This document shows positions 23,245 to 39,688 of a stretch of DNA of 64,000 nt, in pieces. Both the position numbers and the translations under genes were made by a program. The stretch covers positions 1-64,000 of the forward strand of contig NZ_JAAIKO010000010.1 in NCBI RefSeq assembly GCF_016107395.1, in the 5' to 3' direction. This stretch comes from Streptomyces fildesensis. Lineage in GTDB: Bacteria > Actinomycetota > Actinomycetes > Streptomycetales > Streptomycetaceae. Position 1 is the stretch's first letter. Each line of letters opens with the position of its first letter. The notes under the pieces were generated by a model. That model saw nothing but the letters and a program-made list of their open reading frames with translations, was not told the DNA's origin and did no database searches.

Positions 23245-23251
23245 CCCCCCG

Positions 23252-23302
23252 CTCTCGCGGTGCTGTGCTCCCCGCCCCCCGGGGAGCACGGCACCGCGAG
23301 AG
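23252..23302. terminator. Strong bidirectional terminator hairpin
   Basis: 22-bp stem (23252-23273 / 23281-23302) containing one T-G wobble, with a 7-nt all-C/G loop, filling the gap between the convergent lipoprotein and amidohydrolase genes. Confidence 0.85.
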
Positions 23303-23307
23303 ACGGA

Positions 23308-25766: not shown

Positions 25767-28697
25767 ATGGACAGCGCGACAGGGCCCGACCGGGGACTGC
25801 GGTTCGCAGTTCTCGGTCCGGTACGGGCATGGCGCGACGACCAGCCGATCGTCACCGGGTCGCCGCAGCAGCGGGCGCTCCTGGCCGCGTTGCTGCTGCG
25901 CGGCGGCCGGACCGCGACCGCATCCGAACTCCTCGACGCCCTGTGGGGCGAGACGGCACCCACCACCGCGCTGGCCGCGCTGCGCTCGTACGCGTTCCGG
26001 CTGCGCAAGGCGCTCGGCGCCGACGCGCTCGTCACCGAATCCGGCGGCTACGCCCTGCATGTGGCGCCCGACGGGCTGGACTTCGCCGCGGCGGAGCGGC
26101 TCGCCGCCGAGGCCGAGAAGGCCCGGGGCGCGGGCGACCCGGTCCGGGCCCGCGAGTTGCTCGCGACGGCGCTGGGCATGTGGAACGGCGAACCGCTGGC
26201 CGGACTGCCCGGCCCGTACGCGGAGGCCCAGCGCAACCGGCTGGAGGAGTGGCGGCTCACCGTCACCGAGACCCGCCTGGAGTTGGACCTGGAGCTGGCC
26301 GCGCACGCCGAGGCCGTCTCCGAACTGACCGCGCTCTCCGCCGAGCAGCCGCTGCGCGAACGGCTGCGCTGCCTGCTGATGCTCGCGCTCTACCGCAGCG
26401 GCCGGCAGGCCGAGGCGCTCGGTGTGTACGCCGACACCCGCCGGCTGCTCGCCGACGAGCTGGGCGTCGACCCCTGCGCCGAGCTCAGCGAACTCCACCA
26501 GCGGATCCTGGAGGCCGATCCGGGCCTGGCCGCCCCCGCCGGGCCCGGCGCGCACACCGCCGAGGTGGTCCGGCCGGCCCAGCTTCCCGCGACCGTCGCC
26601 GACTTCACCGGCCGCGCCGCCTTCGTCCGGGAACTCGGCGCCCAGCTCACCGAGGCCGACAAGGGCGTCATGGCCGTCTCCGCGCTGGCCGGCATCGGCG
26701 GCGTCGGCAAGACCACCCTCGCCGTCCATGTCGCCCACGCCGCCCGCGAGGCCTTCCCCGACGGGCAGCTCTACGTCGATCTGCAGGGCACCGACGCCAG
26801 GCCCGCGGAACCCGAAGCCGTCCTCGGCTCGTTCCTGCGGGCGCTGGGCCTGTCCGACAGCGCGATCCCCGACTCGCTCGCGGACCGCGCCGCGCTCTAC
26901 CGCTCCACCCTGGACGGCCGCCGGGTGCTGGCGCTGCTCGACAACGCCCATGACGCCGCCCAGGTCCGGCCGCTGCTGCCCGGCACGCCCGGCTGCGCCG
27001 CGCTGATCACCAGCCGGGTCCGGATGGTCGACCTCGCGGGCGCGCATCTCGTCGACCTGGACGTGATGAGCCCCGAGGAGGCGCTGCAGCTCTTCACCCG
27101 GATCGTCGGCGAGGAGCGCGTCACCAGCGAGCGCCAGTCCGCGCTCGACGTCGTCGCCGCCTGCGGTTTCCTGCCGCTCGCCATCCGTATCGCCGCCTCC
27201 CGGCTGGCCGCGCGCCGCACCTGGACCGTCGCCGTCCTGGCCCGCAAGCTCGCCGACCAGCGCCGCCGCCTCGACGAACTGCGCGCCGGTGACCTGGCCG
27301 TCAAGGCCACCTTCGAACTCGGCTACGGCCAGCTCGAACCGCTCCAGGCCCGCGCGTTCCGCCTGCTGTCGCTGCCCGACGGCCCGGACATCTCGCTGGA
27401 CGCGGCCGCCGCCGTCCTGGACATGGACCCGTACTCGACCGAGGAACTGCTCGAAGCCCTCGTCGACATCAGCCTCATCGAGTCCGCCGCCCCGGCCCGC
27501 TACCGCTTCCACGACCTGCTGCGGCTGTACGCCCGCGAGTGCGCCGACCGCGACGAGACCGACGAGGCCCGCTGCCGGGCGCTGTCCCGGCTGCTCGACT
27601 TCTACCTCTCCTCCGCCGCGTGCGCGTACGAGCTGGAGAACCCCGGCGACCGCGTCCTCGACCACCTCGCCCCGACCGAACGGACCGGCCTGGCCTTCGG
27701 CACCCGCGAAGAGGCCCTGGAATGGCTCTTCTCCGAGGCCCAGGGCCTGCTCGCCGCCGTGCAGCAGGCCGCCGGCGGCGGCTGCGAGGGCCCGATGCGG
27801 CGCGCGGTCGACCTGCTGTGGGCGGCCCAGGATCTGATGGAGTCGGGCGTCTACGCGCGGCAGTACGAGCAGGGTGTGCAGGCGCTGGTGACGACGGCGG
27901 GCGACTGCGCCGAGCATCTGGTCGAGGGCCGGGCCCGCGTCCTCCTCGGCCAACTCCACCGGCTGTCCGGGCAGTTCGTGGCCGCGGACATGGAGGCGCA
28001 GCGCTCCTTCATCCTGGGCATGGCCGCGGAAGACCCGCTGACCCGCAGCTACGCCCTCAACCTGCGGGGCGGGATCGCCCTGCAGGGCCACCGCTTCGAC
28101 GAGTGCGCCGAGTACCACAGCAACGCGCTGGAAGCGTTCCGCGAGGACGGCAACCGGCACGGCGAGGCCGCCGCGCTCAGCAACCTCTCCCGGGCCCAGC
28201 TGGAGCTGGGCGACACCGACGCCGCGGTGTCCGCCACCGAGCAGGTCGTGGCGATCTACCGCGGACTGGGCGCCGGCTTCCGGCTCGGCAACGGCCTGTA
28301 CGCCATGGGCATCGCCCTCACCACGACCGACCGGCTCGACGAGGCGACCGTCTGCCTGACCGAGGCCCTGGGCATCTTCCACGAAGCGCGGCAGCGGTTC
28401 TGGGAGGGCATGACGCTCTTCCGGCTCTCCAAGGTCCACCTGGCGGGCGGCCAGTGGCGCCAGTCCGCGTCCCACGCCGAGCAGGCCCTCGTCATCCTCC
28501 GCGAGGTCGGCGGCGAATGGCGCACCGCGAACGCCCTCACCGTCCTGGGGCGAGCCCTCGCCGGCTTCGGCCAGACCATCCGTGCCCGCGCCTGCTGGCA
28601 CGACGCCCTCGGCATCTTCACGGCGCTCGGATCCCCCGAGGCGGACGAGGTCCGACGGCTCATCGACGACCGGTCGTCCCCCGCCGTTGCCATATAA
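25767..28697 (+). CDS. afsR: AfsR: SARP-NB-ARC-TPR global regulator of secondary metabolism
   Basis: 976 residues, close to the 993 known for S. coelicolor AfsR. Domains: OmpR-type winged helix (about 10-100, FAVLGPVRAWR...GSPQQRALLAALLLRGGR), bacterial transcriptional activation domain (about 110-255), NB-ARC ATPase with P-loop GIGGVGKTTLA (308-318), Walker B LALLDNAHD near 388 and GFLPLAIRI near 466, then TPR-like helices to the end. In S. coelicolor, AfsR is phosphorylated on Ser/Thr by AfsK and activates transcription of afsS. Here an AfsS-like gene lies 152 bp downstream on the same strand and an AfsK-like kinase at 35.7-38.2 kb, which makes the assignment firm. Start ATG 25767. Confidence 0.93.
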   Translation: MDSATGPDRGLRFAVLGPVRAWRDDQPIVTGSPQQRALLAALLLRGGRTATASELLDALWGETAPTTALAALRSYAFRLRKALGADALVTESGGYALHVAPDGLDFAAAERLAAEAEKARGAGDPVRARELLATALGMWNGEPLAGLPGPYAEAQRNRLEEWRLTVTETRLELDLELAAHAEAVSELTALSAEQPLRERLRCLLMLALYRSGRQAEALGVYADTRRLLADELGVDPCAELSELHQRILEADPGLAAPAGPGAHTAEVVRPAQLPATVADFTGRAAFVRELGAQLTEADKGVMAVSALAGIGGVGKTTLAVHVAHAAREAFPDGQLYVDLQGTDARPAEPEAVLGSFLRALGLSDSAIPDSLADRAALYRSTLDGRRVLALLDNAHDAAQVRPLLPGTPGCAALITSRVRMVDLAGAHLVDLDVMSPEEALQLFTRIVGEERVTSERQSALDVVAACGFLPLAIRIAASRLAARRTWTVAVLARKLADQRRRLDELRAGDLAVKATFELGYGQLEPLQARAFRLLSLPDGPDISLDAAAAVLDMDPYSTEELLEALVDISLIESAAPARYRFHDLLRLYARECADRDETDEARCRALSRLLDFYLSSAACAYELENPGDRVLDHLAPTERTGLAFGTREEALEWLFSEAQGLLAAVQQAAGGGCEGPMRRAVDLLWAAQDLMESGVYARQYEQGVQALVTTAGDCAEHLVEGRARVLLGQLHRLSGQFVAADMEAQRSFILGMAAEDPLTRSYALNLRGGIALQGHRFDECAEYHSNALEAFREDGNRHGEAAALSNLSRAQLELGDTDAAVSATEQVVAIYRGLGAGFRLGNGLYAMGIALTTTDRLDEATVCLTEALGIFHEARQRFWEGMTLFRLSKVHLAGGQWRQSASHAEQALVILREVGGEWRTANALTVLGRALAGFGQTIRARACWHDALGIFTALGSPEADEVRRLIDDRSSPAVAI

Positions 28698-28711
28698 TCG
28701 CAGGTCACCTC

Positions 28712-28815
28712 AATCAACGCGCTCGTTTATCTGTTGATTATCTCGGGATGCCAGGATTCCATTCATTGCACGAGCTACCCACCCGGTGGCGCACGGGGGT
28801 CGCCACCGGGTGGGT
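28712..28815 (+). promoter_or_regulatory. afsR-afsS intergenic inverted repeats (terminator or afsS leader)
   Basis: Two structures. AATCAAC (28712-28718) / GTTGATT (28733-28739) is an AT-rich inverted repeat, unusual for this DNA. A perfect 15-bp stem ACCCACCCGGTGGCG (28777-28791) / CGCCACCGGGTGGGT (28801-28815) has a 9-nt loop, 34 bp before the afsS ATG. The hairpin may end afsR transcripts or shape an afsS leader. AfsR is known to bind the afsS promoter; its exact site here is not certain, although ATTCCATTCATT at 28757-28768 has a short repeat typical of SARP targets. Confidence 0.5.
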
Positions 28816-28849
28816 GCAACACAGGACCGACAAAACCTGGGGAGTCCAT

Positions 28850-29014
28850 ATGACCACCGAGATCCCGAAGCCAAAGAACGACGGCGGCACCGTCAAGCCG
28901 GACAACTGGCACAACGACAGCACGACGGAGCCCATCCCCGACGTCCTCCTCGCCGACGGTGGCCCCGAGACCAAGCCCGACAACTGGCACAACGACTCCG
29001 AGCCCGCCAAGTAA
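28850..29014 (+). CDS. afsS: AfsS-like small regulator with repeated KPDNWHNDS motif
   Basis: 54 residues, start ATG 28850 with GGGGAG just upstream. The protein contains two copies of a T-x-KPDNWHNDS motif (about 14-24 and 41-50). As I recall, repeats ending in PDNWH are the hallmark of S. coelicolor AfsS (63 residues, three repeats). AfsS is a sigma-factor-like small protein that stimulates antibiotic production downstream of AfsR. Position straight after afsR on the same strand supports the call. This copy is shorter with two clear repeats. The mechanism of AfsS is not settled. Confidence 0.9.
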   Translation: MTTEIPKPKNDGGTVKPDNWHNDSTTEPIPDVLLADGGPETKPDNWHNDSEPAK

Positions 29015-29123
29015 CAGGCCGGGCCGGCGAATCGGGCCCCGCCCGCTCGGGGGAGCGCCAGGGGTGACCGGGGGGAACCACAAAGCACGGGGAAGCACGG
29101 GGGAACGACGGGGGAACGCTCAG

Positions 29124-29296
29124 GAGCTCGGGGGAGCTCAGGAGCGAACGGGCTCGGGGGGCCCATGGTCCGGGGGGACCGCACGGGGGAAGCTCAGGGG
29201 TTCGGGGGAACTCAGGAGTGCACGGGGCTCGAGGGAGCCCACTGGTGAACGGGTCCGGGGGGACCCGGCACGAATCCGGAGTCCGGGGGGACTCAG
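29124..29296. repeat. Array of mini-palindromes with poly-G loops
   Basis: At least seven short inverted repeats share a G-run centre, including GAGCTC-GGGG-GAGCTC (29124-29139), GGTCC..GGACC (29167-29180), GTTC..GAAC (29200-29211), GGGCTC..GAGCCC (about 29225-29239), GGGTCC..GGACCC (about 29251-29266) and GAGTCC..GGACTC (about 29278-29294). The G-runs of four to six on the plus strand could also form quadruplexes. With the terminator below this fills the 426-bp gap between afsS and the convergent CoA-ligase gene. Confidence 0.7.
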
Positions 29297-29327
29297 CGGA
29301 ACGATCGGGACCGCACAGGGGGAACGC

Positions 29328-29372
29328 GAGAGACCGACCATGGCGTGGAGGGGGCGCCGTGGCCGGTCTCTC
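29328..29372. terminator. Strong 18-bp hairpin between afsS and CoA-ligase genes
   Basis: Left arm 29328-29345 and right arm 29355-29372 pair over 18 bp with two wobble pairs and a 9-nt purine loop. It serves as a terminator on either strand between the convergent genes. Confidence 0.85.
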
Positions 29373-29440
29373 TTCCTGTGCGGGACCGGCTCTACCGCCG
29401 CGAGGGGAGCGGTCGACGTCCCCTTCGCACTTTTGCCCGG

Positions 29441-31015
29441 CTACGCGGGCGGCGTCCGCGCCGCCCCCCGCAGCTCCGCCTTCATCACTTTGCCGCTCGC
29501 GTTCCGCGGCAGTTCCGTCAGGAAGTTCACTTCCCTCGGGACCTTGTAGTTGGCCATTTCGCGGCGGGACCAGGCGATGAGGTCGTCCGCGGAGAGGGTG
29601 GAGTCGCGGCGGCGGATGACGTAGGCCTTGCCCACCTCGCCGAGGCGGGGGTCGGGGATGCCGATGACGGCGGCGTCCGTGACGTCGGGGTGGTGGCGCA
29701 GGGCCTGTTCTATCTCGGCGGGGTAGGCGTTGAATCCGCCGACGATGAACATGTCCTTGATGCGGTCGGTGATGCGCAGGTTGCCGTCGGCGTCCATGAC
29801 GCCGACGTCGCCGGTGTGGAGCCAGCCGTCGGCGTCGATCGCGCGGTCCGTCTCGTCGGGGTCCTCGAAATAGCCGCGCATGACGTTGTAGCCGCGGACC
29901 AGGACCTCGCCGGGTTCGCCGGGCCCTGCGGACAGGACGCGTACCTCGGTGTCGGGGATGGCGCGCCCCGATGTGGAGGCGATGACTTCGGCGGGGTCGC
30001 CCTGGCGGCACATCGTGACCGTGCCGCCGGCCTCGGTGAGGCCGTACGCCGTCAGGACGGTGGCGATCTTCAGCTCGGAGCGCAGCCGTTCCACGAGTTC
30101 GAGCGGGACGACGGCGGCGCCGGTGACGACGAGGCGCAACGCGCTCAGGTCGTGCTTGGCGCGGGCCGGGTGGTCGAGGATCGACTGGTGGAGGGTGGGC
30201 GGGCCGGGGAGGACGCTGATGCGTTCCGCGGCGATGTTGGCGAGCGCGGTGTCGACGTTGAAGACGGGCTGCGGCACCATCGTGGCGCCGCGCATGAGGC
30301 AGGCGATGATGCCCGCCTTGTAGCCGAAGGTGTGGAAGAACGGGTTGATGATCAGGTAGCGGTCGCCCTCGGTGAGGCCGGCCAGTTCGCTCCAGACGCT
30401 GTAGACGCGCAGCGTCTGGGCGTGGCTGATGACGGCGCCCTTGGGGTGGCCCGTGGTCCCGGAGGTGAACGTGATGTCCGAGGGGTCGTCCGGGCGCAGC
30501 GAGTCCGCCCGGCGGCGCACCGCCTCGCGGGAGACCGTCCCGCCGCCCGCCAGGAAGTCCCGCCAGGTGCGGTAGCCCTCGGGGGCGGTGTCGGAGAGGA
30601 CGACGACCTCTTGCAGGTGCGGCAGTTCGGCGTCGGCGCGGCGCAGCGAGGCCACGTAGGACGTGCCGAGGAAGGTGCCGGTGACGAAGAGCAGTCTGGC
30701 GCGGGTCCGTTCCAGGACGTAGGCCGCCTCGGCGCCCTTGAAGCGGGTGTTGAGGGGGACGAGGACGCCGCCCGCGGACACGGCGCCGAGCGCCGCGACG
30801 ATCCAGTCGAGCGTGTTGGGCGCCCAGATGGCGACACGGTCGCCGGCTTCGACGCCCGCCGCGATCGTGGCGGCGGCGGCCCGCTCGACGCGCTCACCCA
30901 GCTCCGCGTAGCTGATGCGGGTCCGGCCGTCGACGACCGCCTCGCGGTCGCCGTACTGTCGTACCGCCGCTCGTACCAGCCCCGGGATGCTGCCCCAGTC
31001 CAGGTCACCGCGCAT
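29441..31015 (-). CDS. FadD3-like acyl-CoA synthetase
   Basis: 524 residues, class I adenylate-forming enzyme (acid + ATP + CoA to acyl-CoA). Motifs: TFTSGTTGHPKGA (P-loop-like A3) near 180, INPFFHTFGYKAGI near 225, TAYGLTEAGG (A5) near 310, GWLHTGDVG (A7) near 400, DRIKDMFIVGGFNAYPAEIE (A8 hinge) near 420, and NASGKVMK with the catalytic Lys near 512. The NPFFH.FGYKAGI.A stretch and overall order strongly resemble mycobacterial FadD3, the CoA ligase for the steroid C/D-ring propionate HIP, as far as I remember that protein. ATG 31015 has GGGGAG upstream. Two regulon operators lie in the shared divergent promoter. The substrate is probably a bulky cyclic acid, but this is inference. Confidence 0.88.
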   Translation of the reverse strand: MRGDLDWGSIPGLVRAAVRQYGDREAVVDGRTRISYAELGERVERAAAATIAAGVEAGDRVAIWAPNTLDWIVAALGAVSAGGVLVPLNTRFKGAEAAYVLERTRARLLFVTGTFLGTSYVASLRRADAELPHLQEVVVLSDTAPEGYRTWRDFLAGGGTVSREAVRRRADSLRPDDPSDITFTSGTTGHPKGAVISHAQTLRVYSVWSELAGLTEGDRYLIINPFFHTFGYKAGIIACLMRGATMVPQPVFNVDTALANIAAERISVLPGPPTLHQSILDHPARAKHDLSALRLVVTGAAVVPLELVERLRSELKIATVLTAYGLTEAGGTVTMCRQGDPAEVIASTSGRAIPDTEVRVLSAGPGEPGEVLVRGYNVMRGYFEDPDETDRAIDADGWLHTGDVGVMDADGNLRITDRIKDMFIVGGFNAYPAEIEQALRHHPDVTDAAVIGIPDPRLGEVGKAYVIRRRDSTLSADDLIAWSRREMANYKVPREVNFLTELPRNASGKVMKAELRGAARTPPA

Positions 31016-39633: not shown

Positions 39634-39688
39634 AACGCGGGCGCCGTCCGGTCCTCGGGGGAGGTAGCCGGTACGGCGCCCGCGTTTT
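39634..39688. terminator. Terminator with U-tract between TetR and Ddn-like genes
   Basis: Perfect 14-bp stem AACGCGGGCGCCGT (39634-39647) / ACGGCGCCCGCGTT (39673-39686), with TTTT at 39685-39688. It is the most classical terminator in the window. Confidence 0.85.

Follow-up and report, generated by a model that had tools for sequence, protein, structure and literature searches.

Conserved G-run arrays in the mRNAs of the antibiotic regulators afsS and sigQ: candidate docking sites for a C-loop small RNA

The 64,000-nucleotide stretch of DNA analysed here (the window) contains an afsR-afsS locus. The 976-residue product of the first gene scored 1525.8 bits against the AfsR equivalog of NCBIfam (NF053617, cut-off 1430), carried BTAD, NB-ARC and TPR domains according to Pfam and matched the solved AfsR 8k60 with 1198 bits by phmmer. 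A small open reading frame of 54 codons, with two PDNWHND repeats, begins 152 bp 3' of afsR. No Pfam or NCBIfam family was assigned to its product. Since it lies directly downstream of an AfsR equivalog it is called afsS by position, and position and repeats together mark it as AfsS-like; the AfsS of S. coelicolor has 63 residues and three repeats in the available text of PMC2267785. The locus thereby holds both parts of the AfsR-AfsS module, an AfsR orthologue upstream and a small repeat protein downstream, which supports the placement in the preliminary description of a hairpin array in the 3' region of afsS. Between the two genes, two 11-bp direct repeats (GTTTATCTGTT and GATTATCTCGG) resembling an afs box and a -10-like CAGGAT 3' of them were recognised by eye. 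From this layout, transcription of afsS would start at about 28764; the same arrangement is described in the accessible part of PMC10936776.

25767..28697, + strand: afsR, SARP regulator of 976 aa with NB-ARC and TPR (NCBIfam, Pfam, phmmer)
28725..28746, + strand: afs-box-like pair of 11-bp direct repeats
28752-28757, + strand: -10-like CAGGAT
28777..28815, + strand: afsS leader hairpin, loop 28792-28800 CACGGGGGT (49-row alignment)
28850..29014, + strand: afsS-like small ORF, 54 aa
29044..29323, + strand: 3' UTR array of G-runs, partly in hairpin loops
29327..29373, + strand: terminator-like hairpin, loop TGGAGGGGG, no U-tract (47-row alignment)

Relatives of the afsS-like protein (E up to 1e-4) were found in 26 of 35 genomes of the same genus and in 1 of the 359 other genomes searched elsewhere in the family (G292). 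Named records of the window's genus are Streptomyces sp. SPB162, H39-S7, PH10-H1, CBMA29 and DvalAA-14, Actinacidiphila alni and A. epipremni; the second genus used for comparison (g9) is probably Streptomyces proper. Two loci, L057 and L009 (after position 1948), encode 3' of afsS another small secreted protein whose repeats are of the same DNxH type (PDNNHVD). From the 30 afsS loci collected we dropped L063 and L088 (contig ends) and L083 and L085 (small ORF misassigned).

The preliminary description had reported at least seven palindromes with G4-G6 centres at 29124-29296. Seven were indeed found there and an eighth lies upstream, all on the + strand:

29044..29057: CGCTC[gggg]GAGCG, the eighth palindrome
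29124..29139: GAGCTC[gggg]GAGCTC
29150..29164: GGGCT[cgggg]GGCCC, with one T-G pair
29166..29181: TGGTCC[gggg]GGACCG, core 29167-29180 GGTCC[gggg]GGACC
29198..29213: GGGTTC[gggg]GAACTC, core 29200-29211 GTTC[gggg]GAAC
29225..29240: GGGCTC[gagg]GAGCCC, loop GAGG rather than all G
29250..29267: CGGGTCC[gggg]GGACCCG
29279..29294: GAGTCC[gggg]GGACTC

The centres are thus mostly as described, the exception being the GAGG loop of 29225-29240, which is GGGG in the relatives G018, G019 and G020. Bare G-runs lie between the mini-hairpins, and the array as a whole (29044..29323) holds 12 runs of at least five G and 16 of at least four, with no C5 run. The palindromes do sit where they had been placed; the whole feature is wider, extending from the leader hairpin at 28777-28815 to the terminator-like hairpin at 29327-29373. 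Seven perfect palindromes with arms of at least 4 and exactly GGGG at the centre occur in the 64-kb window, six of them at 29044-29294 and the seventh at 39653. For the RNA 29015-29385 the folding z-score is -4.9.

When the linkers were shuffled with the G-runs held fixed, 0.52 G-loop hairpins were expected against the 4 observed, a number reached in 0 of 300 shuffles. Permuting the right arms of the window's 11 C-preceded G5 units gave the same expectation of 0.52 for perfect 4-bp arms, of which there are 4 (0/500); paired positions, a weaker measure, numbered 25 against 19.4 (p 0.036). Given these shuffled-linker and permuted-arm controls, G-richness by itself does not account for the arm symmetry. 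The earlier view that the arms differ each time needs correction, as some of them are not independent: several units are copies that have diverged, with 71-80% identity and a step of 74 bp.

Complementarity of the arms, on which that view had been staked, was preserved in close relatives. The unit GAGCTC/GAGCTC of the window reads GGGCTC/GAGCCC in G019, G020 and G021, and a few changes do cost a pair (in G019, unit 29166-29181 has C-A at its outermost position). As repeat number differs between genomes, our five-genome alignment of the array (A3) was misregistered for G020 and G021, and the permutation test was used in its place. Pooled over the window's clade, five genomes in all, 32 of 57 units had perfect 4-bp arms against 4.5 expected (0/500). 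The proportion was 3 of 78 (0.52 expected) at the other same-genus afsS loci and 0 of 54 (0.5 expected) at those of g9. Likewise, the five genomes held 4, 10, 8, 6 and 4 mini-hairpins where 0.5-0.8 were expected (0/300 each); in 25 other loci they were sporadic, two having p<0.05 (L079, G032). Clear enrichment of mini-hairpins is limited to the window's clade of five genomes.

The hairpins that flank the array are conserved far more widely. In the leader alignment (A2, 49 rows), 11 of 14 pairs changed on both sides and 97.3% of cells were paired, against 31-52% when the alignment was slid by up to 3 columns. CGGGGG was kept in all 49 rows, the base 3' of the run being usually T, not A, in the window's genus. 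In four g9 rows (L066, L069, L071, L077) a different G-run hairpin had the highest score, and these were left out of A2. The terminator-like hairpin (A4, 47 rows, picked by a GGAGGGG loop) showed changes on both sides in 11 of 12 pairs and 97.8% paired cells. Both sets of segments were chosen round a G-run, so that the G-core is conserved partly by choice and the stems are not. A model of the leader hairpin (R1) gave a strong match in each of 16 same-genus genomes searched, 12 of the 16 at a known afsS and that of G025 beside a weak AfsS-like match; in 10 genomes of other families no match had an E-value under 0.03. The genome of the window has an extra copy (L108, G000:C470:28941-28997; E 4.9e-6 with R1) that stands without an adjacent afsS, next to a GNAT-like gene of opposite orientation. 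Rfam gave no match at gathering score in L135, L165, L035, L073 and L174, and nothing meaningful for 28600-29600 at E up to 5.

Among 160 strong hairpins in 51 afsS zones, 102 had G5 in the loop and none had C5, against 0 and 3, respectively, among 266 in the rest of those loci. The window has 114 strong hairpins, and a G5-run loop on the + strand occurs only in the afsS leader and terminator. A 23-bp hairpin with a nearly perfect stem lies between convergent genes at 23250-23304; its C5 loop on the + strand means G5 on the - strand.

The 3' UTRs were counted in 25 same-genus and 23 g9 loci, excluding L062, L069, L077, L087 and G015 (no recognised GGA-type terminator) and including L067, whose weak terminator of 11 pairs was kept out of A4. 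The same-genus set contained 219 runs of at least five G and 0 C-runs, where dinucleotide shuffles gave 130 G5 runs (maximum 141 in 50 shuffles). All 25 loci had at least one run and 23 at least four. The g9 3' UTRs, mostly short, held 74 G5 runs and 1 C5 run (shuffles, 41), with at least one G5 run in 16 of 23 and at least four in 7. Every leader had a G5 run (26/26 same-genus, 27/27 g9), the totals being 27 G5 to 0 C5 and 56 to 3. Runs are mostly 5 or 6 long, preceded by C or A and followed mostly by A: directly 3' of the run stood an A in 168 of 219 same-genus cases (77%) and 56 of 74 in g9, against 414 of 1658 (25%) in 0.8 Mb of G018. GGGGGA reached 32.1 per kb in the 25 same-genus 3' UTRs, with a background of 0.26 per kb; the preference for A may partly reflect duplicated units. 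The conserved afsS feature is a sense-strand G5-A motif, with or without hairpins, present at all 25 same-genus loci. The structure that the preliminary description took as the repeated entity has this role in the clade of five genomes, and the genus-wide constant is the motif.

Strand bias together with stem covariation suggests that the feature acts as RNA, as had been proposed, and the RNA-level, conserved nature of the afsS feature is well supported by the computations. An element acting as DNA (operators for proteins, a curved or slipped structure, or a replication feature) could draw on the start-to-start spacing of same-genus runs, most commonly 10 nt (24 intervals), but the spacing spreads from 7 to 54 nt, and the bias of 219 to 0 and the covarying stems speak against it; we disfavour it as very improbable. 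RNA G-quadruplexes, whose formation the preliminary description had considered possible, might stabilise the mRNA or stall polymerase. The motif (G3+, loops 1-7) is present once in the window's 3' UTR and in 21 of 25 same-genus loci, with 0 on the opposite strand, but in 5 of 23 g9 loci. A quadruplex does not require that each run be exactly 5 or 6 long with an A behind it. Nor do they explain why leader and terminator loops with a single run are conserved on covarying stems, and the stems that evolved round the runs in the window's clade would compete with them. As the function of the array we consider them decidedly unlikely. The observation of a poly-G-loop hairpin array is confirmed, and its earlier interpretation partly supported.

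To look for the motif elsewhere, three GGGGGA separated by short gaps were sought in the 9.39-Mb genome of the window. There were 4 hits at afsS, 6 in the region that follows a sigma-factor gene and three more, each at an isolated site; with the pattern reversed as a control, 3 hits were obtained. In 8 further genomes the pattern was found on the afsS 3' side in 6 and at the sigma-factor gene in 7, along with many other clusters, of which L205, L206 and L207 were examined. The pattern is insensitive, and a stricter CGGGGGA x3 (gaps up to 35) missed afsS, recovering the sigma-factor gene and one other place (C238:3861). Multi-hit arrays confined to these two loci are hence a statement about the window's own genome and the GGGGGA x3 pattern alone. 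The pattern GTCCGGGGGGAC had 13 hits (control, 2), four at the same two loci and nine isolated, several of the nine in a different dispersed CCCCC...GGGGGG element. This intergenic element (L125, L128, L131, L132), a C-rich stretch followed by GTCCGGGGGGACC, is unlike the afsS units; several copies lie upstream of ORFs.

The sigma-factor gene is divergent to genes for a response regulator and a histidine kinase, which matches the sigQ-afsQ1-afsQ2 layout as given in the available text of PMC6988585, and it is probably sigQ. Its 3' region held 163 G5 and 12 C5 runs in 30 same-genus loci and 241 and 3 in 30 g9 loci, with at least four G5 runs in 24 and 27 of them; the 27 in g9 all have at least five. 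A later sigQ set left out L137, L152, L192, L193, L194, L146 and L163, and the arm permutation also omitted L162 and L184. The array was missing or weak in 6 same-genus and 3 g9 loci; four of these nine, including two of the three in g9, are cut by contig ends. Perfect arms numbered 6 of 113 (0.77 expected) and 15 of 186 (0.95 expected) in the two genera (0/500 each), and an A followed the run in 117 of 163 and 158 of 230 cases.

The 400 nt upstream of the sigQ match start showed no bias (12 G5 against 12 C5, and 15 against 10), so the leader feature seemed peculiar to afsS; a hairpin within the sigQ coding sequence changed this. The coding linker carries 51 G5 against 5 C5 runs in 28 same-genus loci and 107 against 3 in 26 g9 loci; the sigma body has 4 of each. 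Some 630-710 nt before sigQ ends, L135 and further loci contain a hairpin with a CGGGGG loop in which 6 of 17 pairs covary. Some loci have insertions there (e.g. L156, L187, L190), and the conservation may be partly that of the protein. In the sigQ linker the RNA motif appears powerful enough to mould a portion of the coding sequence.

A termination or 3'-end-protection element, made of a U-less terminator hairpin and a G-rich pause region, would account for the array always ending, in the aligned loci, at a strong hairpin without a U-tract, and Term-seq of Streptomyces commonly shows such 3' ends, highly structured and poor in U, in the available parts of PMC8269248 and PMC8914203. A general terminator class sits poorly with multi-hit clusters at two loci only in the own genome and with the lack of G5 loops in the 266 other strong hairpins of the afsS loci, and both the leader hairpin and the sigQ linker carry the motif away from 3' ends. 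Among the alternatives we regard this as the leading one, and as unlikely.

A third array was found in g9, in an intergenic region beside a phytoene-desaturase-like gene (L215-L229; first seen as L206 and L207). Fourteen of the 15 stretches, the remaining one (L216) being misplaced, had no obvious ORF and together contained 88 G5 and 3 C5 runs, with a final G5-loop hairpin. This apparently non-coding array is possibly a free sponge RNA.

If the runs are docking sites, a C-rich partner RNA is required. A scan for paired C-loop hairpins in 0.8 Mb of the close relative G018 gave six candidates, one of which is the 6C RNA (Rfam RF01066, 49.1 bits, gathering 47). By sequence, G020, also a close relative, has the same double C-loop hairpin; none of this type was found in 200 kb of G407. 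The two 6C loops are cUCCCCCCCC and cUCCCCCCC. Since both read cUCCCCC, the predicted site is GGGGGA, in which the A would pair with the U that precedes both C-runs; the T that usually follows the leader run in the window's genus speaks against this. A G-run complementary to UCCCCC loops, as in known 6C targets, was found at the afsS 3' UTRs. The best single-site duplex energy of the array was equalled by 14 of 199 random 371-nt stretches of the window: what stands out is the number of sites, not the strength of a single one. B11, the 6C homologue of M. abscessus, acts as a repressor by means of either C-loop, which base-pairs with a tract of six G in a 5' UTR, as compensatory mutations showed (accessible text of PMC10470900). 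A member of the scr5583 family, another C-loop sRNA in the portion of PMC3765725 available, could be the partner in place of 6C. The accessible parts of the literature surveyed name no Streptomyces targets of 6C RNA and, with a small reach into subscription papers, describe no G5 arrays at afsS or sigQ.

These data are consistent with a model in which the array provides RNA docking sites on the afsS and sigQ mRNAs, most likely for 6C RNA, a reading that we put at slightly under one in two (about 0.48). The afsS mRNA would display G5-G6 runs, usually followed by A, in its leader loop, its 3' UTR and its terminator-like loop, those of the 3' UTR being offered bare or within mini-hairpin loops. 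The runs would pair with C-rich loops of a trans-acting sRNA, most probably the actinobacterial 6C RNA, either between two hairpin loops or between a loop and a linker. With so many copies, the afsS and sigQ mRNAs would be multi-site targets or sponges; the level of 6C might then determine mRNA stability, attenuation in the leader or translation for two antibiotic regulators. Alternatively, the two mRNAs might draw 6C away from its other targets and compete with each other for it. In S. coelicolor a short transcript has been seen between afsR and afsR2 (= afsS) and is suggested in the available text of PMC4681348 to be riboswitch-like, which fits leader attenuation. Binding of 6C and its effect are predictions here.

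The G5 loops and runs might instead be bound by an RNA-binding protein, the 3' array being a CsrB/RsmZ-like protein sponge. Repeated small hairpins with a purine motif, strand-specific and covarying, would suit such a sponge; the motif differs from the CsrA consensus except for a shared GGA, and base pairing gives a better account of the A that follows the run. We judge a protein sponge unlikely, a little more so than a termination element and a little less so than quadruplexes. RNA-RNA docking thus ranks above a CsrA-type sponge, quadruplexes, a general terminator class and a DNA operator array.

A wider proposal, more tentative than docking itself and in our view less likely than not, is that in Streptomycetaceae the mRNAs of afsS (AfsR pathway) and sigQ (AfsQ1 pathway) would each offer many sites to a single C-loop sRNA (6C), as its targets or as sponges for one another, together with the G5 loops of the afsS leader and sigQ linker and the apparently non-coding array of the sister genus, coupling both pathways post-transcriptionally. 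The array matters for the study of AfsS action and of the post-transcriptional tuning of the AfsR and AfsQ pathways; if the reading is true, the afsS and sigQ arrays would link an actinobacterial sRNA to the control of antibiotic production, and they are directly mutable.

Sequestering RNAs of the CsrB/RsmZ type consist of many small hairpins that present one short purine motif. Many small hairpins are common to both, whereas the afsS array is part of an mRNA 3' UTR and its motif is G5A; an RNA appears a more likely partner than CsrA. Staphylococcal RNAIII and RsaE are sRNAs whose C-rich loops pair with G-rich targets. The C-loop/G-rich pairing is alike, and afsS differs in its multi-copy arrays and loop-loop presentation; C-rich-loop sRNAs of staphylococci are mentioned in the accessible text of PMC3765725. 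With the U-poor (I-shaped) terminators of GC-rich bacteria the afsS transcript shares a final strong hairpin without a U-tract, and unlike them it has a conserved G5 loop and an upstream array. The mycobacterial 6C/B11 targets are similar in that they, too, have a UTR G-tract complementary to the C-rich loops of 6C. In those targets, according to the part of PMC10470900 available, one G-tract lies near the ribosome-binding site, whereas the mRNAs of two antibiotic regulators carry as many as about 20 runs here, the majority within the 3' UTR and often in hairpin loops.
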